Shown here: positions 12,830-62,300 of the stretch, piece by piece
Layout of the letters: the number at the start of each line of letters is the position of its first letter
Position numbering within the stretch: position 1 is the stretch's first letter
Source: Fomes fomentarius
Taxonomy: Eukaryota; Basidiomycota; Agaricomycetes; Polyporales; Polyporaceae
Direction of reading: 5' to 3'
Length of the DNA: 64,000 nt
Assembly (NCBI GenBank): GCA_022606135.1
Contig: JABYQN010000015.1
Location: 496,001-560,000, forward strand
Notes under the pieces: model-generated
The model's input: the letters and a program-made list of their open reading frames with translations, nothing else
The model's database searches: none
Told to the model about the DNA's origin: nothing
Position numbers and translations under genes: made by a program

Positions 12830-14478
12830 ATGACTAGTACGTGCTACCGTTCTGCTGTGGATACAACTAACTCACTGTATGTGAAGCCGTACAGCCCAAT
12901 TTTGCACGCTGGCCGCAGCAGGTGTGCTCCTTACAGTGCTATCATGATGACTACGCGGCTGATGGCTTTTTCCAGTGGTTCTGGTCTACGACACGTTGCT
13001 AACCCTTGGCCACGAAGTGCGATATATCTGGAGCCGGAGGCTGGGCGTTATGAGCGTGCTGTACCTCGTAAATCGATACGTCGAGATAGCGTCGTATATC
13101 CCCGCGGTAGTGCCTCTAACGCCCAAAAGTGATGCGGTTCGTGGAATCAACTTCATCGCCCCGTTAGCGTGCTCACCTTCGATCTCGCAGATGTAGGGTG
13201 TACTCCAAGGGTCTATTTTCATCGATGGTGCTCATGGTATGTCACTCCCAGATGTATTCTATGGAACGTATACCAAGATGCCTCCACATTACTCCCCTAT
13301 ATCTCATGGGCAAGTGAGTGACCATGTGCTTAGAGCCGACCATTCGCAAAGATTGATATATTGGCTCTAGTTTTTTCCGGGATCAGAGTGTACGCGTTAG
13401 CTGGGCGTAGGATGTATCTGGCTTTCATCGTATTTATCCTGAACGCTACATTTATCATACCGGACATAGTGAGTAGCCTTTGAGTCGACTGGTCTAGCCT
13501 GACGATCGTGCGTTCTTATTCGACATATCATCATAGTACGTGTACTCCAAGTTGCGGTTACCACAATGCGCCGCAGGCCCACTCCAAGCTAGGGAGTTAA
13601 CACCATGGTGAGAAAGCCTTGATCACGCTGATCCTCATATGTACCGTTGTTGAAGAACATTCTTCTGCTGCACCAGTACGCTCCGTAGCTATCATCACGT
13701 CCCGTACCAGTTCATACTCACTCTGAAACACCTTAGTGCTTGTGCTATCTCGCGTATGCACCCTCATAGGAGAAGCTATAGTGATCGCGGCGACTATCAA
13801 GTGCACACGCAAGCAAAGATCACGTTCATCTGTTCGTGTTAACACTTCTCAATCACTCAGCGATGTGCTGCTCAGTAACGGTACGCCGTCCCATTGCCTA
13901 CTGATGGTGATATCAACATGTTGATCCTCGTGTATCTATCAACAGGTATAACTTGCTTCAGGTAAGCAGCATATAGAGATCCCGATGAAATCCATGCTCA
14001 ACTAGGCCGTCTCTCAGCATCCCCCTGATATTGAACGTGCTCATTACGGTGTTGATTGCAAATGTGTGTTGCATTGCAATACGATTGGGGCATGGCTGAC
14101 CATCTGGCGAGCACAGGGCAGTGACGCAATAGACGTCGCTCGCATGGGTCTTACCACATTCAGAGACTCGTACGCACGTCTTCCTTATATACTCCGCGCT
14201 ACTTGTATCTGACACCCTTTATCACCTTGGCTTGGACAATCTGTCGGGTCAGATTGACCTCGATCTTCATCTCGCGCTTCTTCCTCGAGCTCGCGCAGCT
14301 CGCCGCAACTCAGAGCGCGAGCACTGCTATTCCGGGAGAGGCGGAGTCTAGTGTACTGACGACCCATTTTTCGTCTGACTTCTCGGGTGTAACATACACG
14401 CTAGAGCTTGACCGTTTTTCCGGAGACTTTGATGACCACGTTGACCATGCTGGCGTTCGATATCGGGGAGTAAATTGA
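12830..14478 (+). CDS. DUF6533 membrane protein, gene 2 of 10
   Basis: Predicted multi-pass membrane protein of unknown function. Exons placed by splice signals and paralogue lengths: 12830-12840 (start, 11 bases), 12887-12921 (35), 12976-13136 (161; VLVYDTLLTLGHEVRYIWSR), 13191-13192 (2-base micro-exon AT), 13252-13313 (62), 13371-13468 (98; GIRVYALAGRRMY), an exon ending at the CCATG donor near 13605, a probable 8-base exon at 13679-13686, an exon ending GSN at 13880 (LVLSRVCTLIGEAIVIA), 13946-13961 (16), an exon with PLILNVLITVLIA, one ending TFRDS, and the last exon with SIFISRFFLELAQLA to 14478. The frame stays open wherever I could check it. The intron before 12887 holds a clear ACTAAC branch site. 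It is closest to genes 3 and 4 (FRDS and LTSI-type last exons). Confidence 0.85.
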
Positions 14479-15882: not shown

Positions 15883-17573
15883 ATGGAACTCTTTGATGAT
15901 ACTAGACAATCTATCCTCATCAGCGACGCCAGCGCGAAGTACGTACTCCCCTTCAGTGCGGCGTTGTTCATGCTGGCCGAGGCTTACGAGGAGTCAAAGC
16001 CGTACCTATCAGCTTTATACCATAGCGGCGGCGGGCACGTTGGAGTTCCATTCCTTGTCCATTATCCTAGCTCATCTTTCTGCAGTGATACTTGTGTACG
16101 ACGCAATTATCACGTGTGAGGACGAAGTTAGATATATCTGGCGACGGAGATTCGACATCACCACCGCGCTGTACATTGTGAACAAATATGTAGAGATGGC
16201 GGCATGTATATGTGGATTAGTGCTCTTGTTCCCTGTGAGCACAGAGGTATGCCTTTCTCGTTTAATTCACGCTCAGACGTCATTGTCTTATATCCTGATC
16301 TCACCTCTGCAGATGTATGACGTATTCCAGGTTCATCTATATCCACCACACTCATTGTCCGATGGTGCAGGTGCTATCGGTGGACCATATTTCAACTAAT
16401 CTGCTTACTCCTCCTCTTGATCGCCTGGGCATGTGAGTTTCTTCATGCTCCTCGAATGTATGCTGTCCAATAAGATTCTTATCTCTCTCGGTAGTCTTCT
16501 CGGGAATTCGAGTGTACGCCTTGACTGGACGCAAGAAGCTCCTAGCAACTGTGGTGTTCACACTGAGCCTCATGTTTATTGTTCCAAACTTAGTGAGTAA
16601 TCAATGAACGAACTCAAGCTTATACTCATGATCTCATTATATACAGTATCTGCTGTCGCGGGCGAACTTCGACATATTCAACCAATACCCCTACCCATCT
16701 AACTGTGGGGGGCTTGCTATCCGAGTTGGTGCTAGCAGTAGCACCCTGATTCCATGGTGAGCAAGCAAAGCTTTGATATTGCGTTACCGGACTGAAATTC
16801 CCTGCACCTTTATCTAGTATGCTTGCCGCTCTATGTGTCATGGTCGTATACTCATATCAGTAACTGCAGTGCTTCTGATAGCTCGTACATGCACACTGCT
16901 TGGAGAATGTATCGCAATTGCGATAATTCTAAGAGTCGGATATAGACAGCGTTCGTCATTGTCTGACTGGAATACTACTTCCCGGACCATTATCGATCTA
17001 TTGCTCATGAATGGTACATTCTGACACCGCTTCTGCGCCATTCATACCACTGATACCAACTCATAGGAGTATCCTCTTTTAGGTAGGCAATATATAGACC
17101 ATGTTTCCGATTCAATCTGAACTATAACATCGACAGCATCCCGCTGGTACTGAATGTTCTCACCACCGCTTTCCTCATAACGGTGTGTATCAGTTGCCCT
17201 CCCATCTGCGCTACTTCAAAGCTTATCCACTTGAAACAGGATACACATGATGCAATTTTCGCAAGTGAAAGTATCCGGGCATTTCGAGATTCGTACGAGA
17301 CCCATTCGATACCGTGACTCAGTGTCGTGTCCGGCTGACTGTATCTTCTCTCCCTCTAGACTTACCTCAATTCTCATATCGCGCTTTCTCCTCGATATTG
17401 GGAGGCTCGCCGAAAATCATATAAATAATGCTGACAGAAGAGACAGCGGCGTTCTTACGACGCATTTTGCATCCGAGCTATCAACCGCCACATACGCCGC
17501 GATGGATCCTGACCAATCCATGCAGGCAGGCAATCAACTGAGGGATGTTCTTCGATTCCATAGGACCTGGTAG
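15883..17573 (+). CDS. DUF6533 membrane protein, gene 3 of 10
   Basis: Same architecture as its neighbours. First exons 15883-15938, 16000-16034 (35 bases) and 16086-16246 (161; LVYDAIITCEDEVRYIWRR, NKYVEMAACICGLVLLFPV), then the 2-base micro-exon AT at 16313-16314, the CYRWTIF exon, the exon with FSGIRVYALTGRKKLL, the NCGG exon ending at a CCATG donor, LLIARTCTLLGECIAIAIILR, the 16-base exon 17067-17082, PLVLNVLTTAFLIT, the AFRDS exon, and the last exon (LTSILISRFLLDIGRLA) to 17573. Exon 2 is followed by GCACGT, so a GC donor is predicted; the conserved 35-base length and the reading frame support it. The junction before the LLIARTC exon needs a short, uncertain intron. Confidence 0.85.
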
Positions 17574-18194: not shown

Positions 18195-19809
18195 ATGGCA
18201 TCATCCGATGAGCTCTGGGAGCCTGTCGCTGCAAGGTCAGCTCTCAAAGCTCCCTCTCAACAGTATGCGGCGCTCATATCTTCAATGAAGCCACATGCAG
18301 CACCTTTGTACGATAGCCGCAGCTGGTCAGTCCATCATTGAATTGCTGGCTGCGTTCTTGTCTGACCTTTCGCCAGTGGTATTGGTGTACGACACGCTTT
18401 TGACATTCAATGATGAGATCATGTTCATCTGGCGACGCAAGCTTGGAGTCATCAGCATTGTGTACTTTGTCAACCGATATGTTGAGATATTGGCATATAT
18501 TGCCGACATACAACTCCTCTTTCCCTTGAACATTTCTGTACGTAGTGATCTGGCCATCTTTGGTGTCCAGTCACCTAATTATTTGATCGATCTCACACCG
18601 TCCCCAGACGTAGGTAATCAACACTCCTCATATCTTCATTGTAGTTATATTAAGCTATAGGTGCGCCTTCTGGAGTACATTCGAAGATGTATGTACCGTG
18701 ACTCCATATCTGGCTTGGGCATGTACGTCATCAGTTCTACCCAATGATTCTCCTTATATCAATTCATTGCAGTTTTCTCAGGATATAGAACATATGCTCT
18801 GTCTGGTCCCAGCAAACTCCTCGCAATTCTCGTCTTTGTCCTCACTGCTACATACATCGTACCGGACATGGTGAGTTGCCGTGGCTTCGATGCATGTCTC
18901 AAGCATAGTCATTGAACCATTTATAGTACCAGTATTCCCATACAAAGCACTTCATCGAACCATATCCGTATAACTGTAGAGATAAACTTGTGCCCAGTAC
19001 CGTTCTGCTTCCATGGTGAGCACTGACCTGCCGCAGGCATTCATCTATATATTGCATACTGACCCTGACTATTGTTTCGCAATAGTGAGAAGGACTCCTT
19101 GTCTCATGTACCGAAGCTCACCACTACGATAATAGTACTCCTAGGCTCTCGCGCCAGTACCCTGCTAGGAGAGGCTATTGTCATTGCTATAACTCTCAAG
19201 AAGACATACAGACTGCAAAGGGCGTCATCATACAGTGACGACAGTTGTTTACACCCTCTCGTCCGTGTACTCCTCAGCAATAGTATGTCCTAGTGTCGCT
19301 TTTACATAGCACCGTCTGATAAGCACTCTACTCGCATACAGGCATCTTGTGCTTCAGGTGTGTAGATGCCTAATCAGGTTATTGTAAAAGCTTACAATAT
19401 ATGTAGTGTCCCGCTGATATTCAATGTCCTCGTTACCGTTTTATCCTTAGTGGTGCGCGATGTGTTCTAAATCGTTTTCCATGGACTCACAGTCATGCAT
19501 GCACTCACAGGAAAATCCGGTTGCATTCTCTGTGGGCCAGAGCCTTGCGGCATTCAGAGACTCGTAAGCATTTATTCCGTCTCCTATCCTTCGCCCTGAA
19601 GATCTGACCTCATGTGTCTCACTTCCAGACTCAGCTCTATACTTGTCTCCCGTTTCCTTCTCGATATCGGCAAGCTCAGCGTAGACGGTAGCTCTAACAA
19701 CGTGGACGGTCTACTCTCAACACATGTAGTGTCTGACTTCTCCGGTGTCACGTACACACTGGATTTTGACCAGTCGACGGAAGGCTTGGAGCAGAGCGAC
19801 TACGCCTAA
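18195..19809 (+). CDS. DUF6533 membrane protein, gene 4 of 10 (complete reference model)
   Basis: Twelve exons form an uninterrupted frame of 325 aa: 18195-18235, 18291-18325, 18377-18537, 18608-18609, 18661-18722, 18773-18870, 18927-19015, 19086-19282, 19342-19357, 19407-19449, 19511-19563, 19629-19809. The DUF6533 core is in exon 3 (VLVYDTLLTFNDEIMFIWRRK, NRYVEILAYIADIQLLFP). Hydrophobic stretches in exons 3, 5, 6, 8, 10 and 12 suggest about six or seven membrane segments; the C-terminal 45 residues are polar and probably cytosolic. The 2-base exon 4 (AC) is required: without it the frame of exon 5 (CAFWSTFEDV) is lost. All introns have GT-AG ends. No catalytic motif is visible and the function is unknown. 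Confidence 0.9.
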
Positions 19810-24380: not shown

Positions 24381-26019
24381 ATGTCTTCTAGCGACTATGC
24401 CGATATCATCAGCTATGTGGCCTCTATGTGAGCTACATCGGTCTGTGCCGACACCGGTTAGCTGACTACATATTGACCATGAAGTCTCCCATACGAGCTA
24501 TGCCTCTTCTCCGGAACAGGTGAGAGGTGGTGTTTAATCTGGCTGGTCTTTTCGAAGCTAATATGAACGTGACCATAGCTATCCTACTATACGACACCCT
24601 CATCACCCTTGATGTCGAGGTTGAGGTCGTCTGGACCCGCAAATTGAGTATCTTGGGCCTTCTTCACGTCTTCAATCGCTATACAGCGATAGTGGCGTTT
24701 ATTGAAGCGCTCATACTGCTCTTCCCTGTGAGCGATAGCGTAAGTTCATCAACATACACGTGCCCAGCGTCCTCCGACACTGACATAAAGAGCTGACTCC
24801 TTATAGACGTATGTAGCGAGGCAAGTCGATTGGCTCCAGACTGCTGACGTCGTTCTACAAGATGCCACGCAGTAGGACTATCCGAAGCTATATTTACCAT
24901 GTTGCCTTACCTTTCTTGGGCAGGTAGGTCGACCCAGACTATCCTGCGCTCGCCTTTGCTGTGCTGATCAGCGCCCCGCCTCTGCAGTCTTCTCCGCCTT
25001 CCGAATGTTCGCTCTGACAAATCGCAATATCCCCCTGACAACTCTTGTATTTTTACTGAACGCAAGTTACCTCCTGCCAGATCTGGTAGGTTGTTCTTCT
25101 TGGTCTGCGTTACACTGCTGACATATCATCCGGGCAGTACAATGATGCTCATACTAGATACGTGAATGATGCTCCCCCATACGGCTGCTATCAGAGCGGT
25201 GCGAGGGATAATACAATTGTATCATGGTGCGTTCAGACAACTGTATACAGTCAACAGCTGCTGATTAGCTCCGTTCTTGATCAGTAAGTATCCGAACTCA
25301 TCGATCTTCTGGTGTTTGACCAGCGTTGATGGAAGACCGCTCATCAGTACTCTGGGTATCACGGGCCGCCTTGCTCCTTGGAGAGTCCATCGTACTCGTA
25401 TGGACAATAAGGAAGACTTATCAAACGCGGAATCCTACGTTACAGTGCAAATGCAGGCCGAGAACAATTGTCTGGATACTCTGCAAGAATGGTGAGAGTC
25501 GCCCCTCGCACAGCTACAGGTCTGGATGACTGGACTGACGCACCAACAGGCATAGCGTGCTTCATGTGCGTGAATGTCGACAATACGAATTGCTCCTAGC
25601 ACTGATACTTGTCTTAGATTTCCCTTGGTCATGAACGCAGTAACTCTGGCTCTGAATGTAGTGGTGCGCCAGGCGTCCTTTCAGACACACGTCATGATGT
25701 GCGCTCTGACCGGACTTTGATAGCAGACAGAGGGCGCAGCGTCAATGGGGCAGTGCATTATTGTGTTCCGAGACGCGTGCGTCGCGCATATTAACCTTTC
25801 CCCTCTGATCCTGCTGACCCGCGCGCCATACCTGCCAGAATCACCACAATCCTCATATCGCGCTTCCTCCTTGACCTTGGCACGCTAAGCGCGCGGTCAA
25901 ACTCAGAGTTCGACAGCTTGGGAACGGCCCCTGACACACTCACATCGCATTTTTCGTCCACTTCTTTCGAGACCTTCGTATCCCCGGACGTGGCCAACAA
26001 CATCAGTTGGTCGGCTTGA
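24381..26019 (+). CDS. DUF6533 membrane protein, gene 5 of 10
   Basis: Exons at 24381-24427 (MSSSDYADIISYVAS), 24485-24519 (35), 24579-24739 (161; ILLYDTLITLDVEVEVVWTRK), 24807-24808 (2-base AC), one ending in TMLPYLSWA, one with FRMFALTNRNIPLTTLVFLLN, 25138-25226 (89; PPYGCYQSGARDNTIV), one ending at 25491 (LWVSRAALLLGESIVLVWTIRK), 25550-25565 (16), one with PLVMNAVTLALNVV, one ending IIVFRDA, and the last with ITTILISRFLLDLGTLSA to a TGA at 26017. First of the gene 5-8 subgroup (MSSSD start, FRDA and LTTI/ITTI last exon). The short link between the exon ending at 25226 and the LWVSR exon could not be resolved in frame by eye. Confidence 0.85.
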
Positions 26020-26432: not shown

Positions 26433-28122
26433 ATGTCTAGTAGTGACGATAACGCCCTTGTCGTGTATGTCGCAACTATGTGGGTTTTACTACTTCGGTT
26501 TGAGTCTGTTGAAACGAACTCTGCGAACAGTATGCCATATGAATATTGCCTCTTCGCAGGCACTGGTGAGTTTCGTTCTTCCTTTCGCAATGTCGCGCTT
26601 GGGGCCGACTGACTGCTGAATCCCTCACATCCCCAAAAGCGTTGCTTCTGTACGACACGGTCCTCACATTCGGAACCGAAGTCAATGTCATGTGGCGCCC
26701 TAAGCTCAGTGTCAAGGCTCTCATCCACATCCTGAATCGCTACGGCGCGATCGCGGCATACATCTCTGCCGTGGTACTGTTGTTTCCTGTCAATGACCGA
26801 GTGAGTCTTTTTTTGAGCTTGCAGTGCTTAAACTGACTATGCTCTCTGACGAAGACGTATAGTGAACTCATCCAATACAGAAGCTGGCGGGGGATTCACG
26901 CATTTTGTCTCCTATTGCAGGTGTCATACCCTAGGCTTATTCGAATCCATATGTACAGTGCTACCCTACGTGGCCTGGTCCTGTGCGTATCACACGGTCG
27001 GCGTTCATCTTGAGGACCCTGGGCTGATAATCTGCGAGCAGTATTCTCTAGTCTGCGTATGTACGCACTATCAGATTGCAACATCCCGCTCTCCATCTTC
27101 GTCCTCGTCCTCAACATGATGTATATCGTACCAGACATAGTGAGTCTTGTGCCGTGATTCATACTCCGAGCACACGCAGGTTTCTGATCCTATAATTGAA
27201 CAGTATAATGACTCGGTCTGCAGCTTTTTCAACGATCTGCCTCCTTACGGTTGCTATCAAAACGCAGTGGAAGACAACGTAATAGTGCCATGGTGAGTCT
27301 AAACGCACCCGCAGTCGAGAATTCGCTTAACTCTTCTTCCCTCCCAGTGAGTTACGGATCATTTATTCCTATTTCTTAAGTAATCGAGCTCTGCTAGTGT
27401 TATGGACATCGAGAGGGACATTGTTACTCGGAGAAACGATAGTCCTCGTTTGGACTTTCAAGAAGACCGTCCGGTGGCGATCAACACGCCTGATCCGCCT
27501 GTATGGTTCATCTCAAATGCTCTCCGAGGTGCTCTTCAACAACGGTCTGTCTTCGTCCTTCAGGGCTGCTTCATATGACTGATCCGCACAATTTATAGGT
27601 GTCGCATGCTTCGCGTGAGTGGGCCTCCGCATAATCGGATACGTATCGAGGTTCTGACAGGCGCGGGGTACCGTGGACAGCGTACCGCTCGTATTCAACG
27701 TGATCACACTAGCTCTCACACTCGTGGTGAGTGCCGTGCCTGGCTCTGGTCTTGTCGCACACTCCCATACCATACATACCACAGGATACCGACATGGCCG
27801 CGAGCATAGGGCAATGCGTTGTTGTATTCAGAGATGCGTGCGTCATCTCTCTGCTCGGATTCTGTTCCGTTATTCCACTTAACACGCGCGCTCCAGACTC
27901 ACGACGATCTTGGTCTCGCGGTTCCTCCTCGACCTAGGCGCGTTCGGCGTGCATCCGAACAATGGAACCAACGCTTCGACTGAAGGCGCCGGAACTGGCA
28001 CGATGCGGTTCGCGTCGGAGCTCTCGGACTCGCACGCGGAGTCGGAGGGCTCTGTGAAGCGCGAGACGACGTGGATGCGTGGGGACGAGTATGAGTTGAG
28101 GGTGCGCTCACAAGACTCATAG
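26433..28122 (+). CDS. DUF6533 membrane protein, gene 6 of 10 (complete reference model)
   Basis: Twelve exons give an open frame of 343 aa: 26433-26479, 26531-26565, 26640-26800, 26855-26856, 26921-26982, 27042-27139, 27204-27292, 27348-27544, 27599-27614, 27681-27726, 27785-27837, 27897-28122. The core LLLYDTVLTFGTEVNVMW sits in exon 3. Membrane-helix candidates include AIAAYISAVVLLFP, SIFVLVLNMMYIVP, GETIVLVWTF, PLVFNVITLALTLV and LTTILVSRFLLDLG. The C-terminal tail is acidic and Ser/Thr-rich (FASELSDSHAESEGS). Exons 4 (2 bases) and 9 (16 bases) are micro-exons needed for the frame. Closest relatives are genes 7 and 8, with which it also shares flanks. Function unknown. Confidence 0.91.
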
Positions 28123-28825: not shown

Positions 28826-30476
28826 ATGTCCAGTGACGATGACGTCCTTGTCGCTTATGCCGCGTCTATGTGAGTGTTACTATCTTGATTTGATTCTGTT
28901 GAAATCAACTCCGAGTTTGCAAACAGTACGCCATACAACTATAGCACCTTTGCAGGAGCTAGTGAGTTGCGTTTTTTCTTTCGCAACTTCACGCTTGAGG
29001 CTGCCTGACTACTGAGACTTTCACAACCCCGAAAGCGTTGCTTCTGTACGATACAGTCCTCACGTTTGGGACCGAAGTCAATGTCATATGGCGCCGTAAG
29101 CTCGGTGTCAAGACTTTCATCCACATCATTAATCGCTATGGGGCGATCGCGGCATACATCTTTGATATAGTACTACTGTTTCCTGTCAATGACCGAGTGA
29201 GTCTTCATTTGAGCTTGTAGTGCTTCAACTGACTATGTCCTGTGACGAAGACGTATGGTGATCACGCTCAATACAACAGCTAGTGAGGGGTTGACGCGTT
29301 TTTTCTCCTGTCGCAGGTGTCACAGCCTGAGCATGATCCAAGCCATCTGTGAAATGCTACCCTATGTAGCCTTGTCTTGTGCGTTTCACAAGGTTGGCGT
29401 CCATCGTGAGGACCATTTGCTGATACTCTGCGAACAGTATTTTCTAGTTTGCGTATATATGCCCTGTCAGGTTCCGACGTTCCTCTCTCCATCCTTGTAT
29501 TCATCCTCAACGTGATGTATATCGTACCAGACATAGTGAGTCATGCGCCATAAATCATATTAGAGCACACGCAAGTTTATGATCCTGGATTCGCACAGTA
29601 TAACGACGTCGTCTCTCACTTTGTGAATCGTCCACCTCCTTACGGTTGCAATCAATATTTAGCGGAAGACAATGTATATATCCCATGGTGAGTCTAGACG
29701 CACACCGCAGTTGAGACTTCGTTTTACTCTTCTTCCCTCCTAGTGAGTTACGGATCAAATTCGTTGCTGTTTCTCTGACAGAGATCAGTGTTATGGACAT
29801 CAAGAGGGACCTTTCTACTCGGAGAAACGATAGTTCTCGTTTGGACTTTCAGGAAGACCGTCCGGTGGCAATCAACATTCCCAATCCGTATGCATGGATC
29901 ATCTCAAATGCTCTCTGAGGTGTTTCTCAACGACGGTCTGTCATCATCCTTCATTCACAGGCTGCTGCATATCACTCATCCACACAATTGATAGGCGTCG
30001 CCTGCTTTGGGTAAGTGGACGTCTGCATGATCGGAGATGCATCGAGGCTTTGACAGGCTCTGAGTATGATGGCCAGCGTACCACTCGTATTAAACGTAAT
30101 CACGCTCGCACTCACTTTCGTGGTGAGTGCCGTACCGCTCTACTCTCACCACACACTCTCATCATACCATACCACAGGAAACAGACACGGCCTGGAGGGT
30201 AGAGCAATGCATCGCCATATTCCGAGATGCGTGCGTTGTCTCTCTACTCCAAATTTGTTCCATATTCGCTCTCAACACGCACGCTCCAGACTTACGACAA
30301 TCTTGATTTCGCGGTTCCTCCTCGACCTAGGTGCGTTCGGCGCGCATCCCAATGGAACCAACACTTATTCCGAAGCCGGAACTGGCACGATGCGCTTCGT
30401 GTCGGAGCTCTCGGCCTCGTACCCGGAGTCGACGGGCTCTGTGATGCGCGATACGACGAGTGGGGATGAGCATTAG
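28826..30476 (+). CDS. DUF6533 membrane protein, gene 7 of 10, possibly frameshifted
   Basis: Very similar to genes 6 and 8 at DNA level. Recognisable exons: start at 28826 (MSSDDDVLVAYAAS), the exon with LLLYDTVLTFGTEVNVIWRRK, the 2-base micro-exon AC at 29251-29252, the CHSLSMIQAICEMLPYVALS exon, one with LSILVFILNVMYIVPDI, 29599-29687 (89 bases), 29744-29935, 29995-30010 (16), PLVLNVITLALTFV, QCIAIFRDA, and the last exon to 30476. The exon at 29744-29935 is 192 bases against 197 in genes 4 and 6. This 5-base deficit, before the LWTSRGTFLLGE helix, breaks the frame, and no believable small intron restores it. The rest is intact, so the copy is either recently disabled or spliced in a way I cannot see. 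Confidence 0.75.
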
Positions 30477-31748: not shown

Positions 31749-33434
31749 ATGTCCAGTGACTATGACGCCCTTGTCGCCTATGTTGCGTCTAAGTGGGTAT
31801 TACTACTCATATTTGGTTCTGTTGATACCAACTCCGAGTCTACAAACAGGATGCCATACCAATACTCGCTCTTCGCAGGAACTGGTGTGTTTAGTGTTTT
31901 CTTCCCCCCTTTGCGCTTGAGGCCGCCTGACTGCTGATGTCGTCCAAACATCCCCCAAGCGTTGCTTCTGTATGACACGGTCCTCACATTCGGAACCGAA
32001 GTCGATGTCATATGGCGTCGAAGGGTCGGTATCAAGACTCTCATCCACATCTTGAATCGCTACGGCCAGATCGCGGCATACATCTTCTACGTTGTACTGT
32101 TGTTTCCTGTGAATGATCGAGTGAGTCAAAATATGAGCTTGTGGTGCTTCACTGACTATGCTCTCTGACGAAGACGTATGATGGTCAAACTCAATACAAT
32201 AGCTGGTGAGAAGTTGACGCGTTTTCTCTCCTGTCGCAGGTGTCACAGCCTGAGCATCTTCCAATCCATCTGTGGACTGCTACCCAACGTGGCCTGGTCT
32301 CGTGCGTTGCACAAGGTCAGTGTTCATCTTGAGGAGCCTGGGCTGATATTCTGCGAACAGTATTCTCTGGTTTGCGTATGTATGCGCTATCAGATTGCAA
32401 CATTCCCCTCTCCATCTTCGTCTTTGTCCTCAACGTGATGTATATCGTACCAGACATAGTGAGTTATGTGCCATGAATCATGTTCTGAGCACTGGCAAGT
32501 TTCTGATCCTTGAATCGCACAGTACAATGACATTTTATCTGGCTTTTTCAACGATCCTTCTTATGGTTGTTTTCAAAATCTCGTGGAAGACAATGTGTTA
32601 GTGCCATGGTGAGTCTAGGCGCACCTCGCAGTCGAGACCTCGTGTAAATCTTCTTCCCTCCCAGTGAGTTACTGATCAAGGTGTATTGCTGTTTGCATGA
32701 CATTGTCAAACCTTTCCAGTGTTATGGACATCGAGAGGGACGTTGCTACTCGGAGAAACGATAGTCCTCGTTTGGACTTTCAAGAAGACCGTCCGGTGGC
32801 AATCAACACCCCTGATACGTATGAACTATGGATCATCTCAAATGCTCTCCGAGGTACTCTTCAATAACGGTCTGTTTTCATCCTTAAACTACGGGTTGCT
32901 GCATATAACTGATCAACTCAATTCTATAGGGGTCGCGTGTTTCGCGTGAGTGGGCCGCCGCATGATCGGATACGTATCGAGGTCTTAACAGGCTCGGGAT
33001 ACCATATACCAGCGTACCACTCGTATTGAATGTGATCACGCTAGCATTCACTCTCGTGGTGAGTACTGTACTGCTCGACTTTCACCACACTCTCATCATA
33101 CCATACCGCAGAACACCCAGATCGCCAGGAGCGCGCACAATTGCCTCATCGTATTCCGAGATGCGTGCGTCGTCTCTCTGCTCGGATTCTGCTCCATATC
33201 TCCACTCAACACACATGCTCCAGACTTACGCCGATCCTGATCTCACGGTTCCTCCTCGACCTAGGCGCGTTCGGCGCGCATCAGAACAACGGAACCAACA
33301 GTTTGTCTGAAGGCGCCGGAACTGACATGATGCGCTTCGTGTCGGAGCTCTCGGGCTCTCACGCAGAGTCGACCGGCTCTGTTATGCGCGAGACAACGAG
33401 TGGGGATGAGTATGAGTTGGGGGTGCGTTCATAA
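31749..33434 (+). CDS. DUF6533 membrane protein, gene 8 of 10, one junction uncertain
   Basis: Exons 31749-31792, 31850-31884, 31960-32120 (LLLYDTVLTFGTEVDVIWRR), 32174-32175 (2-base AC), 32240-32301, 32361-32458 (VFVLNVMYIVPDI), 32523-32608, then 32665-32869, 32930-32945 (16), 33013-33058, 33112-33164, 33224-33434. All phases agree except in 32665-32869, which is 205 bases instead of 197: 3 bases are an in-frame insertion (MNYG) and 5 break the frame ahead of LWTSRGTLLLGE. Splicing out an unusually short 29-base intron (32691-32719) would restore it and give 329 aa. Without that, the gene is a pseudogene. The C-terminal tail (FVSELSGSHAESTGS) matches genes 6 and 7. Confidence 0.78.
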
Positions 33435-35141: not shown

Positions 35142-36801
35142 ATGTCTTCCGAGTACAACTACAATGATCTTGTGAGCTCCTTAGAGTCCTCGTAAGCAGT
35201 GTTCAACGTTTCAGTCATCATACTTTCTTACTTACACCAGGACGCCATAGCTATGTATATAACCTCTGCCTACTTTCCGGCCTTGGTGCGCGTCAAGCCC
35301 ACAGTCTGCTGTCGCATCTATTAATGACTAGTACTCTGCCTGTAGCAATGCTACTATACGACACTACTCTTACCCTGGCTACTGAGATTCGCGTGGCATG
35401 GCGCCGAAGTTTCACCTTCGCAGGTTTTCTCCACATAATCAATCGCTATGTCCAAATCACAGCATATATCGCCGCACTGGTCATTACCTTTCCAGTGAGC
35501 AACCATGTGAGTTCCCCATCCCCTCAACACCCCCAGACTCTTGCATTCTTTCTGGCATTACAATGCTTACAGCTTTTACCCTGTGCTTTCATTTCAAGAT
35601 GTATGTATCTCATATGATGCCTTGTGCGGCAGGAAGACCATTACGTGATTCATCTTCGGCGTGACATAGATGCACCTCCTTCGGCATATTGGAGGAAATC
35701 GCTACACTGCTACCTTATATCTCTTGGGCTCGTATGTGTCATATCTACCTGCATGAGAAGTTCTTGAGTTGACTTCGTTCAGTATTCACAGGTCTGCGCA
35801 TGCATGCTATCTCGGATGGGAACAAGGTGCTCTCAGTGTCTGTATTCGTCTTAAATGTGGCCTACATCCTTCCGGACCTGGTAGGTGCCTCAGTTAAGCA
35901 CACTCAAAGTGCCGAGCTGAGACGTTTTGCAGTATGAAGATACGCATATGGCATTCATCAATACACCTTTACTTGGCTGTTATCAAGCAGGCACTGCCTC
36001 AGAGTCAATGATCGCTTGGTGAGTCTTATAAAGCTGCGATGTCGATCAGTCGAGACCGCTAAGCCCTTGTATTCACTAGTCAGTCATTGAGTCAATTGGC
36101 TAGTTCGGTTAACCAACTACTCATCGATTATTATATAGTACTGTGGACGTCGAGAGGCACCTTGCTACTGGGAGAGTCCATTGTGCTGTTTTGGACGGTG
36201 AAATTGACCTGGTCGCAACGCAAGAACACTCCTTCTGTGTTTGGTAGAAGGGAGACACTAGCACAAGTGATGCTGACCAACGGTATGCATGCATCCCATG
36301 ATTGATCATGCAGGCGTTCTTACTCATGAGAGCTCAGGAACCATGTGCTTCATGTAGGATTACCAACCAACCTGTGTATTTCCATGGCACGCTGACCTTT
36401 TTTAAGTGTACCCCTCCTATTCAACGCAACAACTCTAGGCCTACAGATTACTGTACGTCCCGTGATGCTCTACCCGCTCGATAACTCCGTTGACTCGAGC
36501 TTCTATAGGGGTCGGACAACGCCATGAGCGTAGAGCAGTGCATTATATGCTTCCGGGACGCGTACGTCAACCCCAAGGATTGAGATGTCTTACGACATGG
36601 GAACCTGATGCGGTCGTCTCTAGGCTCACCACCATATTGATATCACGGTACTTGCTAGCTCTCGGAAAATTTGGCAGAAGAGGTGAAGACGAGCTGTATA
36701 GCACAAGCAGGGCGTCCATGGTGGACCTCGATCCTACGTTCATTTCGCCCGACCCCGTGCCAGGGCAGAGAGATGATGGTGATAGTACCGACTTCGCATG
36801 A
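35142..36801 (+). CDS. DUF6533 membrane protein, gene 9 of 10
   Basis: Exons 35142-35191, 35251-35285 (35), 35346-35506 (161; MLLYDTTLTLATEIRVAWRR), 35599-35600 (2-base AT), 35670-35731 (62; ILEEIATLLPYISWA), one with GLRMHAISDGNKVLSVSVFVLN, one with LLGCYQAGTA, 36080-36282 (203 bases, a single open exon with VLWTSRGTLLLGESIVLFW), 36338-36353 (16), one with PLLFNATTLGLQIT, one ending IICFRDA, and the last (LTTILISRYLLALGKFG) to 36801. The 203-base exon is 197 plus 6, so it is in frame. Its nearest relative is gene 10 (ISRYLL variant). It has no sign of damage. Confidence 0.88.
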
Positions 36802-37700: not shown

Positions 37701-39380
37701 ATGTCTTCGGATCTGGACTATAGCAACGCGGCACTTGTGAGCTTCATTGGATCCAAGTAAGCGACATACTTCGTTTCCGGGGAGTCACTAGCACGCTTGA
37801 CTGAGAAGCACAAGCTATCCATTCAGACTATGCTTCTTCTCCGCCCTCGGTGAGCTCTTAGACCTTATCAACTCGATCTGTTGCACTGTTGACTAACCAG
37901 ACCGATGAATGGACTTAGCAATGCTTGTGTATGATACAGTTCTCACACTGGGCACCGAGATAGGCGCAATCTGGAGCAGGAGGATAACGCTGGCGGGGTG
38001 TCTGCACATAGTCAATCGCTATGCTCAGATAGGTTCGTTCGCTTCTGCATTGATTCTAAACTTCCCAGTGAGGAGCTATGTGAGTTGACGTCATTCTGAA
38101 CCTATCAGAACACAATCCTCATTCATTTCCTCCAGACGTTCGTGTCTATCCTTCGCAACCCCTACGCACCGCAAAAGTAATGACTCTCCTGAATGTGACT
38201 CAACACAGGTGCAGATCATTAAGCATATTCATGGAGATTGTCACGCTACTACCATACATTGCTTGGGCAGGTATGTAGACTCGTCGGCCGCCCGAATGTC
38301 ATGTCGGCAACTAACCGGCGCATGCAGTGTTCGCAGGTCTCCGCATGCATGCCCTGTCAAACGGAAGCAAGGGTATGGCCAGCCTTGTATTTCTGTTGAG
38401 TATATTCTACATCGTCCCACACCTGGTGCGCGTTCTCGCTGCGTAGCTGATGAGCAAGGAACGCTGATGCTGTGAACGTGGGCAGTACAACGACTCACAG
38501 GAAAAGGCAGCGATGAACGAGCCGCGCCCATACGGCTGTGTATTTCTCACATCCTCCTCGAAGGTGCTGACACCATGGTGAGTTCCGACCCTTAGTAGGT
38601 CTACATCACGGATATCTGATGCTCAACCCATTCTCTTATCTAGTCAGTTGCTCAGTCATGTATTCGACTGACCACGCCTTGCTCACTCGGCTTCTAGTAC
38701 TAGCAACATCTAGAGGTGCCCAGATGCTTGGAGAACTCATAGTCCTGGTATGGACGTTCAAGGTTTCCTGGAGGCGATGCAACAGTGCTTCGCCTGCGTA
38801 TGGACGAAGTCAAGCCCTAGCAACACTGATGCTGACCAATGGTATGCGATATGTTTCAAACTGTCGAGTGTACTATGTCGTCGTGCTCATCAACAAAATT
38901 CTAGGGATAGCTTGTTTTATGTAGGGAGTGCGACGGAATCACCTTTTGTTTGATTGCTGAGAACCCTGTCAGTGTACCTCTCTTGTTCAACGCAACAACT
39001 CTGGGTTTATTCATTGCTGTATGTGCCAGAACGATCACCCACGTCACCCGTTTACTGGCTAATGTTCTGACAGGCTTCCACTTCCGACCAAGCACAGAAC
39101 GTGCAGCAATATATTGTATGCTTCCGGGACGCGTATGTCAATTTCGCGATTGCTCTGTTGTCTTGAGTCACCCGGGTCTGACTCCGGCATGATCTCCCAC
39201 AGGCTGACCACCATCCTCATCTCACGTTACCTGCTAGACCTGGCGGAATTCGGGAGACGGAAAGGTGATCAGCAGAATACTTCCAAAAGAGCGCTCACGA
39301 CGGATTTCGACCCTATATTCATCACTCCGGACATTTCGCCGGAATCAATGGACAATGGCGACATGACTCACTCAACATGA
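37701..39380 (+). CDS. DUF6533 membrane protein, gene 10 of 10
   Basis: Last array member. Starts MSSDLDYSNAALVSFIGS at 37701; exon 2 is 23 bases (12 fewer than usual, in frame); exon 3 is 37919-38079 (161; MLVYDTVLTLGTEIGAIWSRR). Then come the 2-base AC at 38136-38137, the CRSLSIFMEIVTLLPYIAWA exon, the one with GLRMHALSNGSKGMASLVFLL, 38486-38577 (92), a probable 11-base exon at 38644-38654, the exon ending at 38841 (LATSRGAQMLGELIVLVWTF), 38905-38920 (16), PLLFNATTLGLFIA, CIVCFRDA and the last exon (LTTILISRYLLDLAEFG) to 39380. The 11-base exon and its 43-base intron are the weakest part of the model. Confidence 0.85.
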
Positions 39381-43657: not shown

Positions 43658-46069
43658 TCACCTAACCAGCAAACTCGAATGACTTGCAATGAACGCCAGC
43701 GCGAGTGCAAGCCCAATAGTCATTGCGTCCGCAATGACCTTCGAGGTATGCGGCCGAGGCCCGGAAGACCCAGACGACGCTTGTCTGCCCGCGGTGCCCA
43801 TGTTCGAGCACAGACTCCCGTTCGGGCTCAGCGCGGACGGTGGTAGTAGTATCTACCCCCATGATGTCAGCGTTTCATGCAAACGCAAGCTTGGTGCGGA
43901 GAACGGAGATGAGAAGGTGGAGCACTGGACAATGACAACGGGATAGAGAGGGGAGAAGAGGAGAGAAGAAAGACGCACCTGAGGCAGTCCATGAGATCCG
44001 TGCACAAGCACCCCACCATGCGTGTCAGCATAGACCGTGTTGCAAGTGAGCACATCAACGAGCTCCTCGTGCGGCGCATATCCCGCGTCGGGAACGTTCC
44101 ATGTCGGGCCGTCAGAGGCGTAGCCAGTGTTGGTGAGGAGCGCGAGCATAGGCGGCTTTGACACGGCGAGCGTCGAGGGGGTGACCGCATAAAGCTTGGC
44201 CTGCACGCGATTGATATGCCATATGTATGTAGGCGATGAGATATGAAAACGAGGGAATGGACGTACAGGCGTGGTGAGGTAGCTGCTGTTCGCTGTGATG
44301 GCCGCGCGACGCGCCGCGTTGAGAATTTTGACGTGCGTTACGAGGGGTTTGTCTTGGATATATCCCGATAGCCAGAGCCTACCAGGAGGATGTGAGTACG
44401 CCGAAAGTCAGAAGTACAACGAGAGACACTGCACGCACGCTTCGCGGTTCGCGGGGTCTGGGCCACCTTGATAGCCTTGCTCTTGACCTTCGTATCTACC
44501 TTGTCAGTAAATGCTTCTAGTGTCGTTCCATACCACTCACCGTAGTACAAGATAGGAATCCCGTCCTGGACGAATGGCCAAGCCATCGCGTTCTTAACAA
44601 GCTACGACGCCCGAGCTCCCTGATGAGTGACTGTATGCGGGCAAATGGAAACTGAACACGCACCGCTTGGTCGTCCGTGAGCGACCCGAAGCGCGGCTGG
44701 TCGTGGTTCTCGAGGAACGATCCAGTCATCATTTCCCCACTCTTGTATGCCGCCTGAGCAGCCCACACATTCGACGCGAGCGCCGTCAGGTTTCCGGTTG
44801 CGTTCTGGAACGCGGAGACGAGTGCGAACCAGGTTGGATAGTCGAGGACACTATCCAGGATCTCTGAAAGAGTGTTCAGTGTCAACGTTGGCAACAGATA
44901 CGCAGCCCGGAACTCACGAGTGTACGGCGCGACATAGTTGACATCGTTCTGCTCGATCTCGCCCAGAGTGAACACGCCTGCCGATTTCACGAAATCCGGC
45001 CAGAAGTCCTTCCTGATATGCTTGACAGTATCGATCCGCACTCCATCAATACCATACTCCCCAACTAGCTTCTGGATCCACGCGTACAGCGTCTTCACCA
45101 CCTCGTCATCTTCCGTGTTCAGATCGGCCAGCGGCAGGTTCGTGTCCCCCAGCCAGCACTGTTCGATCTCTGTCTGGTTGTCCCAGTTCGAGATGAAGCA
45201 CTCGCTGTGGAAGCTCGATTTGGACGAGAACGGCGAGAGCGCAGAGTATTCGGGCGGGTCGGAGGAGGAAGCCATGTGGTTGGCGACGACGTCGACCATG
45301 AGGTACATGCTGCGGTTATGCAGCGCAGTGCTGAGCGCTTTGAGGTCTTCATCGCCGCCGAAGTGGTCGTTCAGGGAGTCAAGTTCCTGTGTCCAATATC
45401 TATCGCGGCCAGTTAGCCAGAGGGTTAGATTACCTCGCCCGAGTGTAAGTGGCACGGGTCTGGTCTCCCGCGGACGGCGGTTACGAGTACGGGTACGGGT
45501 GAAGTACGTCCCATATCGAATGCCAAGTGGGGTCGATATGTGTGCTCAAATATATTTGACACAACCCAGCCGGATGTCGGGCACAGCTGGCATTAAAGCT
45601 GGCCCCCATTCTGTTAGACCCACGGACGGGGCCCAGCTCTGTACTAGCTGTGCCCCATGTCTGACCGAGCCACGGCATGTGGAACCGTGCCACTCCCTCA
45701 CCTCGAGCACAGGGGATTGATGAGCTTACCCGTGGAATGCTTCGCCATAAGATGTGTTCCCCTCGACATTTGCGACAACGGGTGATATCCAGATGGCGTC
45801 GAACCCTAGGTCCTGGATGTAGTCTAGCTTCGAAATGACGCCCTTCCATGTTCCGCCGCAGTACTGCCTGTTGGAGGTGTCGCATTTGGGCCCCGACTCG
45901 TCAGAAGTTGCAAACCGGTCGGTGACCAACTAGCGAGCGGTTCACTTATAACGTACGGGGACGCGTGGGAGGGTGAACGCACCTGATAGATAGTTCTATT
46001 CCGCCAGTCGTCCGCCGTCGCCGCGAGAGCACAAGTCACTAGTACTGGAAGTGTAATCCAAGACCGCAT
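43658..46069 (-). CDS. GPI-anchored alpha-amylase (GH13), copy 2
   Basis: Nine exons on the minus strand (46069-45983, 45929-45730, 45399-44918, 44863-44664, 44601-44541, 44487-44439, 44378-44267, 44200-43979, 43852-43658) give a continuous 535-aa frame. A signal peptide (MRSWITLPVLVTCALA) is followed by the GH13 barrel with regions [21 protein letters not shown] and [29 protein letters not shown], and a domain C ending DAGYAPHEELVDVLTC. The C-terminus has a Ser/Gly-rich linker and a hydrophobic tail (IADAMTIGLALALAFIA), so a GPI anchor is predicted. All catalytic residues are present, with the standard GEI in region III, unlike copy 1. Intron 2 is 330 bases, far longer than its other introns. 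Confidence 0.94.
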
Positions 46070-52325: not shown

Positions 52326-53554
52326 TCAACCCCGGGCCCTGAACCCCACCAGGCGGAAAATTACGCTCTTCACCCGCTCCACAATATCCTTCTTGCACGT
52401 GCTGTTGATGAGCGTGACGCTTCCATCGGCGGTGAAGAAGCTGGTGGGCGTGCTCCTCGCCGACAAGTACCTGGTAGAGGTGATGGCCTGACCGGCCAAG
52501 CGTTGCTCCCTCGCGAGCTGGCGCGCACGTGTGTTCGGCGCCCAGCTGAGGTTGAGGATCTCGTTCTCGGATGCCAACGTCGACCTCATCATCTCCACGG
52601 CAAAGGCCCCGACGCCGGGGGCGTTGTCGACAGTGCGGTAGAAGGTCTCGATCTCGGTGACCCATATGCGGACTTGCGGCAGGCGAGCACGGATGCGGGT
52701 GTTTGCGCGGAGCATGCGGCGGATGAGCCGGTTTGTGCCTTCGGAGATGGGGAGGGAGTCCATCAGGAAGCGGGGGTTCTCGACGAAGTAGACGTAGACG
52801 GCGTTGTCGGGCGTCGCTCGGAGCCATGGCAAGTTCCCGGACAGCATGACGACAAAGATGAGGCCCAGGGCCCAGGTGTCGCTTTGCGCGCCAGAGCGAA
52901 AGTAGCGGCCTTCAGCTTTGAGACACTCTGCGAATGTGGTGTGAGCATCTTGATGGTCATTCTGTGCTGGTCGAGCACACGAAGCTCACCTGGAGGCATG
53001 TACCCGAGAGTACCGCAGGGTTGATCATAAGCGGTATCCTCGCTCGCGAGCCCAAAGTCCGCGACAAACAGCTGGGTGCCGTCCTCGCTCACAAGGATGT
53101 TATGCGGCTTGAGGTCGCGGTGGTAGATCTTCTTGGAGTGGAGCCAGTCCACTGTGTCCACAAGGGTGAGGAATGCATTTCGGAGCCTGGTCTCGTCGCG
53201 ATAGGGACCGTGCGTCTCGATATACGTCGAGAGGTCTCCGCCGCCACAGCAGTCCATGACGAACACGAACCACTCGTCGTCCTCGTACGCGTCGTGGAGG
53301 GTGATGACGTTCGGATGCTCCGACGCGAGCTTGTGAATGGCCATCTCGCTGCGGAAGGACTCGCACCAGGAGGAGTTGCGACCTCGTTTGCTCACGAGCT
53401 TGACGGCACGCTCCCGGTCTCCGGGCGTCCCCTCGAGGTCGACGGCTTTGTAGACAACGCCATAGGAGCCCGAGCCGAGCAAGGTGGTGAGTTGGTAGCG
53501 CTTGTGGAAGACGACGCCGGCGAGGTTAGGGAGCTTGAGGGCAGCGCTAGGCAT
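52326..53554 (-). CDS. Serine/threonine protein kinase (Ran1/Sks1-like)
   Basis: Complete eukaryotic protein kinase in two exons (53554-52990 and 52927-52326, intron 62 bases), 388 aa. Motifs in order: glycine loop GSGSYGVVYKAVD, VAIK-type lysine in RAVKLVSK, catalytic loop HRDLKPHN, DFGLAS, GTLGYMPPECL (APE replaced by PPE), then SDTWALGLIFVVMLSGNLPW for subdomain IX. The layout, with MAIHKLASEHPNVITLHDAYED and a DTVDWLHSKKIYHRDLK segment, resembles the Ran1/Pat1-Sks1-Vhs1 group of fungal kinases that act in nutrient or cell-cycle control; the exact role is inference. The C-terminal 100 residues have no recognised domain. It is transcribed toward the F-box-like gene. Confidence 0.92.
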
Positions 53555-58879: not shown

Positions 58880-59375
58880 AGAATGAGGTGGGGAACACGA
58901 ATGGTGTATGGGGTGGAGGAGATGGTGCTGGAGGGAGTCAAACAGGGCGCAAACCTTAGCAACCACCTCTGCAGAGACTCCCTGTTTGTCTGGCTGCCAA
59001 TCAGTGACAAACCCGAGCGCTCCTGAGGCCAAGTTGTTTTTCTTACTAAGATCGAATCTGATATAACTGACTTTTGATTGTGAACCTCAGGCCAGTTTGA
59101 AACAATGTTGAACAGCATCCCGATTGTGTCTGCACAAATAGTCTCGCGACATTCGCATCCAAGCTCTCGAAGAGTCACAAGCCTCCTTCCCTTCATTTTT
59201 CCCACTTCCAACTGCTCTCTCCTTCACATTCATTCTCCCCAATTTGTCTCCGCCGCCACCCCTTCAAGATCGCCTGTCCCTTCAAGTTTGCACAACAAGT
59301 ACAGTCGATCAGATTATCCTACAATGTAGGCTCGTAGCTACTTATGAATACATGTGTCTATCACTGTATTGCTTG

Positions 59376-62300
59376 ATGCTGTTACCCTCAGACAGACATG
59401 TTCAAGCACCTATTTTGCCAGAAGAGAATCCCTTGCACCTCAGAGGGTGCATGGTGTATTTCAAGACAGTCGCTGGGTGCAAGCAACATATTGCCGCCAT
59501 ACATGACCTTGAGGCCCAACTGCACGGTGCAACCCTGGACCCTCCACCACTCTATCACCCCAGTTTCATCATACCCCACCAGGACAATCACGCCATCAAC
59601 ATCAATGCAGGCAATGGTGATGGACCAGGTCCCAATGCTGGAGGCGTTCAACCGGAGGATCACCAGCCAATCCAGACAGAGGTATCTGTGGAGACGCATC
59701 CCCACCTCACCAGTAAGTGTCCCTGTGCTGCTACGCACCCCAAGACTCATCATACATTCAAAGGTACTCCCTGCGACCCCACTGGGCAGCCACCCCCCAC
59801 AGGTGCACCTCCGTCTGCAAGGCCAGGCCCTCGGAACAATGATTACAGGCCATACAAGTCACACGCCCAGTTCCAGATTGCTGACTTTCTGTATTGCGAG
59901 GTCCAGATGTCTGGCAATCATATGGACAAGTTGATGAATCTGTGGACTGCATACAGTGACTCATCGCCATTCACAGATCATCAGCACATGTACTCCACCA
60001 TCGATGCAATCCCACTCGCTGACATAAAGTGGCATGCTTTTGTTGTCACATACACAGGACCACGCCCTGAAAGCAAAGTCCCTGCTTGGATGGAGGCTGA
60101 ATACTTGGTATACTACTGTTGTCCCCGGCAGGTCCTCCATGCGCAACTCGGTAATCGCGAGTTGAATGGCGAGGTGGATTATGTCCCTAAGAAGATATAC
60201 CATGGTGACAAACGCATCCTGCAGAATTTTATGTCAGGTGACTGGGTATGGACGCAGGCAGTATGTGATCATTTCAACTACAAGGTGTACCTGCTATTCA
60301 ATACTATATCCTCCAGGATGAGATAGCACAAGATCCTCGAACACATGGATCGACATTCTGCCCAGTGATACTAGGTAGCAACAAGACCACTGTTTCAGTG
60401 GCGACTGGGCAAAATGATTACTGGCTGCTCTATATGTCCAACAGCCTTGTTCACAACACTGCCCGATGAGCTCAACGTAATGCAGTTTCCCTCATTGCCT
60501 TTCTGGCTATCCTGAAGAGTGAGTACGCCTCTGGGTCCCATACAGCAACTCTATACTCCCTCCCTGAATGAAATCACTGACTCCTGTTGCAGCCGACCAC
60601 GAGTTTGCCGACGATGCAAAGTTTCGCAAGTTCCACTGGCAGCTCTTTCACACATTGCTACACACTATTCTTTGCTCGCTCAAGCTGGGAATGACTGTGC
60701 CTGAAGTTGTCCGCTACCCCGACAGGCATTTCTGGCACACAATCTATGGCCTTGGACCCTACATCGCTGACTACCTAAAGCAGTCTCTGCTTGCTTGCGT
60801 CGTCTATGGATGGTGTGCAAAGTAAGTTATGTTTCCACAAACCCATTTGTCCCCCTGCCGGTTTCTGGCACGGCTATACGCTTTCTCATGTTTCAAGTTG
60901 GTGACACCATTGCAGGCCGTACCCTCTGATCCACTACTGAGGGTACACATCTGTTTCACTTGTCACCTGATCACTCTCTTGCTCCTTCGAACACTCTTCC
61001 TCTTCACCATTGTCCATGTGAGGTGTCTCATGAATACCTCGCAGATGTGACACACCTAGGCAAGACCTTTATAGTGGTGGAACATGATGCTCTCATGCCA
61101 TCACCAATGCGCTGCTCAACAGCATGGACCTCAAAGCCTTGTGGGACGACTACGGGATTGTAGGCGATCTCCTCGTATGTCTGCCAGTGCTGTTACTACT
61201 TCATCACCTCGCCGCACCTGACTAACCACGTTAACCGATCTAGCCCTTCACTGTTGCATTCCGTTGAGCCGATATCCATGAGATGCTGTCTCTGGACCTG
61301 CTGCATCAGGTGATCAAGGGTACCTTCAAAGATCACCTCATCACCTGGGTGGAGGAGTACCTGGAGCTTGAACATGGCAAGGCCAGTGCCACAGTCATAC
61401 TTGCGGACATCAACCGTAGGTCTGTCGATCATCAGGATCTCTTTCTCAAATCTGAGTCCTTACTGTAACCTGTCATAGGATCGCAGCCACACCACACTTC
61501 TCAGGCCTCCGCCGATTCCCTGAAGGTCGGGGCTTCAAACAATGGACTGGCAACAACTCCAAGGCCCTCATGAAGGCAAGATCTCCCTTGTCTTGAGCAT
61601 ATTTTAAGTCACTCACCGCGTCAATGAATGATACTAGGTGTACCTTGGCACAATTGTTGGCTATGTACCACCTCAGATGGTGCAATGTATGAGCGCATTT
61701 CTAGAATTCTGTTATCTCGTTCGCTGGGACACAATCACCACTTGGACACTACTTCAAATCGAGGATTCCCTGCAGTGTTTTTATCATGACCAGGTCATCT
61801 TCGAGATGACAGGAGTCTGTACCACCGGATTCTCGCTCGCCCGTCAACACTCGCTTGAACATTACCCACTTCTCATACAGAATTATGGTGCACCTAATGG
61901 CCTGTGCTCTTCCATCATGGAGTCGAAGCACATCAAGGCCGTTAAGGAACCTTATCGCCGATCCAATTGTTTTGGAGCCCTTAGCCAGATCCTTTTGATT
62001 AACCAATGACTCGACAAGCTCGCTGCCGCCAAACAGGACTTCACCGCTCGTGGCATGCTGGCTGGACCTTGTCTCCCAAGCATCGACGAGGACAACATCT
62101 GGGATGGACTGGACCTTGAGGAGGACCTGAATGAAGAGGCCACTGTGCGAGAGGAGCAACATGCAATCCTGGATGAGGACAAGGATGGAGGGCTGGTGGA
62201 GGACAACCGGGTGCTGAGCAAGGTCATTCTTGCTAAATGCAAAGGCATGTACAGTGTCTGAATTCGCAGTTATTCTAGTCAGACAACTCATGTTACCTCT

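Follow-up and report, generated by a model that had tools for sequence, protein, structure and literature searches.

A strongly inferred two-base exon recurs across the DUF6533 gene family of Fomes fomentarius

Exons of a single nucleotide have been described in plants and in one fungal gene family. Arabidopsis APC11 contains a proven 1-nt exon (PMC4674806), and this type of exon is reported to be conserved in plants, with VPS55 as a second case (PMC8831610). The 1-nt exon of Fusarium CYP621A, supported by SRA reads, was presented in 2026 as the first such exon in fungi, in a report that also refers to earlier examples of 2-5 bp exons from Arabidopsis, Drosophila and humans (PMC12940212). The shortest exon reported for the P450 genes of Phanerochaete measures 6 bp (PMC1184071).

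The DUF6533 genes of Fomes fomentarius, in which two bases appear to form an exon of their own, resemble these systems to different degrees. As in the published accounts of plant APC11 and VPS55, a tiny exon lies between two complete introns, is required by the reading frame and is mis-annotated, and relatives that have lost an intron keep the base or bases in a fused exon. The plant cases, however, comprise one base in one or few gene copies and are proven by cDNA and RNA-seq, whereas the DUF6533 exon comprises two bases, occurs in at least about 130 copies and is deduced from genomic sequence. CYP621A, as reported, is likewise a fungal case with short flanking introns, was found by a frame mismatch and has a conserved junction motif. 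There, an intronless relative serves as length marker, in the place taken here by relatives without intron 2. CYP621A contains one base, with an identical candidate exon (AGGGT) in 24/24 genes, while the DUF6533 exon has two bases, ten different dinucleotides and variants of 8 and 11 nt. The Phanerochaete P450 genes share with DUF6533 the combination of fungal microexons and short introns, although their reported minimum is 6 bp instead of two bases. Trichoderma Xlr2 also contains a fungal microexon, but a regulated one with two isoforms (PMC11121469). Two consecutive splicing reactions at one place are described for stwintrons (PMC9024468, PMC12403724) and recursive-splicing exons (PMC6224609) as well; in the stwintrons of these accounts a splice site is interrupted by an internal intron, with no exon in between, whereas DUF6533 genes have to retain two bases. 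SNB1 of Coprinopsis cinerea, a seven-transmembrane protein, belongs to the same DUF6533 family, and the part of its description considered here does not treat exon structure (PMC10949477). In the open-licence PMC literature searched, no report of a 2-nt exon in fungi or of DUF6533 exon structure was found. The kind of exon is already known from 1-nt examples, and the new aspects are the two bases, the whole-family scale and the natural variants. As 1-nt exons have already been published, "among the smallest known", as the initial annotation of this locus put it, is fair wording.

The window, i.e., the whole stretch of DNA analysed, comprises 64,000 nucleotides and corresponds to bases 496001-560000 of contig C15 in the 40.9-Mb assembly of F. 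fomentarius. The initial annotation had proposed a two-base exon at ten positions, which is confirmed by direct reading of the window sequence: AG-NN-GT with the proposed letters is present at 10/10 positions, the two bases being AC in six genes, AT in three and CT in gene 1. All ten genes are located on the forward (+) strand and share the same anatomy, in which a 161-nt upstream exon, preceded by AG, is followed by intron 1 (53-92 nt), the two-base exon, intron 2 (51-71 nt) and a 62-nt downstream exon, which in turn is followed by GT.

In gene 1, these elements are the upstream exon at 70-230, intron 1 at 231-286 (56 nt), the exon CT at 287-288, intron 2 at 289-346 (58 nt) and the downstream exon at 347-408. 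Gene 2 has its upstream exon at 12976-13136, intron 1 at 13137-13190 (54 nt, donor GTTCGT), AT at 13191-13192, intron 2 at 13193-13251 (59 nt) and the downstream exon at 13252-13313. The upstream exon of gene 3 (16086-16246) precedes intron 1 (16247-16312, 66 nt), AT (16313-16314), intron 2 (16315-16370, 56 nt) and the downstream exon (16371-16432). Gene 4, the site of the original finding, carries AC at 18608-18609 between intron 1 (18538-18607, 70 nt) and intron 2 (18610-18660, 51 nt), with the upstream and downstream exons at 18377-18537 and 18661-18722. For gene 5, the order is upstream exon 24579-24739, intron 1 24740-24806 (67 nt), AC 24807-24808, intron 2 24809-24861 (53 nt, acceptor AAG) and downstream exon 24862-24923. 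Genes 6, 7 and 8 all contain AC, followed in each case by a 64-nt intron 2. In gene 6, the upstream exon (26640-26800), intron 1 (26801-26854, 54 nt), AC (26855-26856), intron 2 (26857-26920) and the downstream exon (26921-26982) follow one another; the corresponding elements are found at 29036-29196, 29197-29250 (54 nt), 29251-29252, 29253-29316 and 29317-29378 in gene 7, and at 31960-32120, 32121-32173 (53 nt), 32174-32175, 32176-32239 and 32240-32301 in gene 8. Gene 9 has the longest first intron (35507-35598, 92 nt), located between the upstream exon (35346-35506) and AT (35599-35600); intron 2 (35601-35669, 69 nt) and the downstream exon (35670-35731) follow, and the residue encoded at the two-base exon is present in the published model C8Q74DRAFT_1307119 (P0004). 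Finally, gene 10 consists of the upstream exon at 37919-38079, intron 1 at 38080-38135 (56 nt), AC at 38136-38137, intron 2 at 38138-38208 (71 nt, donor GTTCGT) and the downstream exon at 38209-38270.

The upstream exon ends in phase 0 in all ten genes, and the first base of the downstream exon completes a codon, after which a Cys codon comes next. Consequently, the frame requires two bases, or a number that exceeds a multiple of three by two, between them, and with the exon borders given, the frame fails to close without the two-base exon in 10/10 window copies. The phase argument of the initial annotation, according to which the 62-nt exon wants exactly two bases after the 161-nt exon, holds for 10/10 genes. 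In the predicted mRNA, the two bases supply the first two bases of a codon and the third base starts the next exon; this codon specifies Thr in six window genes, Ile in two and Met and Leu in one each, and Cys follows it in 10/10. The conserved Cys would mark the start of transmembrane helix 3 in the predicted structure.

Two genes were also expected to stay open over their full models, gene 4 with 325 aa and gene 6 with 343 aa. Gene 6, which has eleven introns, is indeed open across 12 exons and encodes 349 aa with the first exons as chosen in this analysis; its model matches DUF6533 (PF20151) at 46.3 bits, compared to a Pfam gathering score of 24.1. Gene 4 has internal exons of 161, 2, 62, 98, 89, 197, 16, 46 and 53 nt, which recur with the same sizes in gene 6, and has an open frame throughout the modelled 258 aa (the internal part, with the first exon and the end outside the model), while the length of 325 aa was not reproduced. 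Further 3', a 16-nt exon is common to genes 4 (19342-19357) and 6 (27599-27614), and the exons around it are equal in size between the two genes (197, 16, 46, 53). Elsewhere in the window, open frames match a Plavaka transposase (59244-60326, +), an alpha-amylase (44517-45455, -) and a protein kinase (52763-53554, -).

A PF20151 profile search of the whole assembly returned 215 candidates, of which 150, the maximum, were scored; six of these are located in the window and the other 144 were fetched. The loci contain at least 154 DUF6533 exon copies, including the ten window genes, a number drawn from 150 of the 215 candidates. The "ten copies" of the initial annotation are all confirmed, but the count of copies that allow the two-base exon is at least about 130 in the genome. 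Many of the at least 150 DUF6533 exon matches in the genome are clustered, on contigs C3 (about 2.5-3.4 Mb), C13, C6, C2 and C15. The downstream acceptor was placed in 137/154 copies; 10 of the 137, which the 20-codon profile had missed or scored too low, were set by hand with the expected structure known. The 17 dropped copies can be divided into three groups: seven paralogues with intron 1 and without intron 2 (L055 on contig C11; L109, L118, L124, L127, L128 and L133 on contig C2), three with a downstream exon that is broken or mutated as judged by eye (L007 +, L029 and L031), and seven without assignment (L005, L015, L030, L068, L095, L103 and L131). The downstream exon of L031 is apparently broken by the insertion of an inverted repeat, in which a stretch precedes its own reverse complement; by eye, it is located about 210-330 bases past the start of the NRY codons. 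Cys is the first codon in 137/137 copies, which is partly built in because the downstream-exon profile favours Cys at this position. As the family copies are related, the counts below are non-independent events.

AG-NN-GT is located 45-85 nt 5' of the downstream exon in 118/137 copies, while 200 dinucleotide-preserving shuffles yield a mean of 22.9 (sd 4.8, maximum 37). AG and GT are separated by 1, 3, 4, 5, 7 or 8 bases in 26, 12, 33, 19, 22 and 41 of the 137 copies, respectively; spacings of 0 and 6 are also frequent (58 and 65 of 137), due to the letters AG/AG/GT and to donors of the type GTNNGT. When an open frame is demanded and GC donors are allowed, an in-frame 2-nt parse is found in 130/137 copies, compared to 26.0 (sd 4.1, maximum 34) in 40 shuffles of the introns. 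Exon lengths of 1 and 3-8 fit only 11-32 of 137 copies under the same demand, so the proposed two-base exon is supported as the sole recurring solution. Although 8 nt would be possible in frame in 32/137 copies, this length was assigned to three copies only. When a combined score of 12 bits or more is required of the splice sites, the 2-nt parse is present in 102/137 copies and in 6.2 (sd 2.2) after shuffling. A first parse of 142 copies, based on splice-site matrices for which other DUF6533 family introns had served as training set, gave 2 nt as the best two-intron parse in 115 copies, a different length in 9 and none in 18. Seven of the 137 copies are without a 2-nt parse: L043, L076 and L106 with 8 nt, L082 with 11 nt, the pseudogene-like L036, L125 and L136. 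The 8- and 11-nt exons still correspond to a multiple of three plus two.

Among the 130 parsed copies, the two bases are AG in 65, GG in 23, AC in 19, AT in 11, GC and AA in 3 each, GA and CG in 2 each, and TG and CT in 1 each, and the resulting codon mostly encodes Ser, Gly or Thr. When the letters are AG, the third codon base is C or T (Ser) in 60/65 copies, which fits selection on the intron-split codon, the related copies being non-independent. The identity of the two bases is 0.84, versus 0.756 in the adjoining intron, a weak test with 153 non-independent pairs from 53 copies, on which no conclusion is based here. In the same pairs, the exons are no more conserved than the adjoining introns (upstream 0.752, downstream 0.727), and this low conservation would point to very fast evolution of the DUF6533 family or to many decaying copies in it.

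The frame could in principle also be kept by a single intron whose donor or acceptor lies elsewhere, in which case AG-NN-GT would be a chance or decoy motif. In-frame one-intron parses do exist for individual copies, and the frame of some published models seems to have been patched by such means (P0002, P0006, P0007 and P0010). A script that charged the extra intron with a handicap of 10 bits selected the 2-nt parse in 92/154 copies, another parse in 49 copies, including window genes 2, 6, 7 and 8, and none in 13. However, the raw score of these four window genes is higher for the 2-nt parse, and the one-intron alternatives, tested with donor shifts of -24 to +30 and acceptor shifts of -50 to 0, vary from copy to copy, with the commonest donor in 18/130 and the commonest acceptor in 11/130. 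The 2-nt parse, by contrast, fits 130/137 (shuffled 26.0), and a one-intron reading leaves the in-frame two bases of intron-2-less paralogues unexplained. A single intron is thus a quite improbable solution. The automatic choice with its fixed 10-bit handicap was too coarse, its winners elsewhere being idiosyncratic, and it was replaced by the spacing, alternative-recurrence and shuffled-parse tests.

In all probability, the two bases represent a genuine exon that no productive mRNA of these genes can lack, flanked by two short introns of ordinary type that are spliced successively, and we strongly infer that the two bases are included in the mRNA. The median lengths of introns 1 and 2 are 57 and 57.5 nt (130 copies), and a branch-site-like CTNAY is present near the 3' end of 107/130 first introns (shuffled 39.7) and of 83/130 second introns (shuffled 35.7). 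The two-base site is located between the 3' and 5' splice sites of two complete introns (118/137 for AG-NN-GT; 130/137 for the in-frame parse). Fungal introns of such length are generally recognised as units. Both flanking introns would each be recognised whole, by intron definition, and the size of the exon between them would thus be irrelevant for recognition. With acceptor and donor only two bases apart, the splicing machinery presumably cannot bind both at once, so that the introns would be removed one after the other.

Stepwise splicing, which the initial annotation had offered as an option, would hence be an apt description insofar as the two introns cannot be dealt with simultaneously. 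A special recursive mechanism is not needed, because neither intron is of unusual size and the branch-site-like motif is enriched in both. Alternatively, the site could be a twin intron or a ratchet point of recursive splicing that leaves no bases in the mRNA. The sequence AGAGGT offers some basis for this, as in 53 AG-type copies with a GT donor it also constitutes a zero-length AG/GT site, but such a site is absent there in copies with other letters. Addition of zero bases leaves each parsed copy two bases out of frame, and in 41/130 a stop appears inside the downstream exon. Zero-length use as in recursive splicing therefore breaks the frame, and a stwintron, from which all intervening bases leave, is at odds with a frame that keeps two bases in every parsed copy. 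Removal of both bases is therefore scarcely credible, and a retained two-base exon is the preferred reading.

The donor 3' of the two bases is weaker than that of intron 1 (median 4.8 versus 7.6 bits). The intron side of this second donor has a median of 3.4 bits when the two bases are AG, 7.1 bits for GG and 4.6 bits for AC. AG is the best exon-side match to U1. The weaker intron-side donor in AG copies hints at compensation, but it may also reflect ancestry.

The seven paralogues without intron 2, five found by script and two (L055 and L124) read by eye and then joined, preserve the two bases in the same frame at the start of the downstream exon in 7/7 cases. The two bases are followed by N-TGY in five copies and by N-TAY in two; in L128 and L133, Tyr replaces the otherwise conserved Cys after the two-base codon. 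L055 reads tag/AG-C-TGC and thus spells the commonest 2-nt exon (AG) together with its neighbour. Among the family copies of the F. fomentarius genome, no copy without both introns was found, and a search of the same genome for a copy spliced through the junction gave 18 weak matches, judged from the match table, and no clear retro-copy. In a tree of 141 short sequences, the six intron-2-less copies of contig C2 form one group (SH-aLRT 95) and L055 stands apart. The best tree implies two changes for the intron-2-less state, of which well-supported branches force only one, and four changes for the four 8- and 11-nt copies, of which two are forced; the tree is unrooted, contains many forks without support and does not separate gain from loss of intron 2. 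Together with the at least about 130 copies, the ten dinucleotides and the rare 8- and 11-nt forms, the intron-2-less states suggest with good confidence that the two-base exon is an old, family-wide feature of DUF6533 genes.

Three protein searches yielded 85 proteins, and seven F. fomentarius models among them span both flanks of a copy's junction. Five of these seven carry exactly the residue or residues predicted from the DNA, with the caveat that a gene finder might pick a 2-nt exon to rescue the frame: Ile in P0004 (window gene 9), Gly in P0022 and P0061, Ser in P0033, and Asn-Leu-Gly in P0031, as predicted for an 8-nt exon. P0010 has four residues at the junction, and P0008 (locus L033) has Ser, versus Gly predicted from the genomic GG; a canonical splice path giving this Ser was looked for at L033 and none was found. 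Of the three window-gene models that reach the flank of the exon, P0004 includes the two bases, while P0001 (gene 6) and P0005 (gene 5) do not. Judged from the protein sequences alone, models in Daedaleopsis (P0002, P0007), Earliella (P0006) and Cerioporus (P0018) appear to be patched at the junction. A loose pattern, in which one residue precedes Cys and a run of fixed length leads from there to Trp/Pro-Ala/Gly/Ser, is present in 27/85 proteins, some patched ones among them. P0071 is an uninterrupted 350-aa family member encoded on a 1,576-base JGI contig, in which a single residue (Gly) precedes the Cys and the run from this Cys to Trp-Ala counts 20 residues, in agreement with the exon model. 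Because gene 6 has eleven introns, P0071 looks like a transcript, with an intronless gene as the alternative. P0009 and P0085 were also considered as possible short-contig transcripts and rejected as genomic read-through.

P0001 corresponds to the skipped form, in which the downstream exon of gene 6 is read out of frame. This raises a variant of the best explanation, compatible with it, in which a real 2-nt exon is often skipped and serves as a frameshifting off-switch. Skipping two bases always shifts the frame, the weakness of the second donor would favour it, and alternative isoforms around 1-nt exons are reported from some plants (PMC8831610). P0001 is a published model only, and the APC11 exon is described as constitutive (PMC4674806), so that frequent skipping of the DUF6533 exon seems unlikely.

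How the spliceosome handles an exon too short to bind has so far been studied on a handful of genes. If correct, the set described here would exceed all other known sets of ultra-small exons in size, and it would constitute a natural experiment indicating that no lower limit of exon size matters when introns are recognised as units. A single genome would provide at least about 130 natural variants of a 2-nt exon, differing in letters, donor strengths and neighbours, together with intron-2-less relatives. Public RNA-seq mapped to the JGI reference genome of F. fomentarius exists (PMC11827164). Inclusion, skipping and the order of intron removal would thus be measurable together. This reference genome is presumably the assembly analysed here.

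The finding also concerns the DUF6533 proteins themselves. The alignment-based predicted structure of P0022 suggests a GPCR-like fold, with Ste2 (class D) as the best realigned match; a single-sequence fold of the same protein (pLDDT 36) was discarded in its favour. If this fold is correct, DUF6533 would represent a very large receptor-like family. The two-base exon of DUF6533 genes is often missed by gene-finding programs. As only one of the three window models contains the exon and models in three related genera are seemingly patched, this large family with its GPCR-like predicted fold is probably in part mis-described in polypore genomes.
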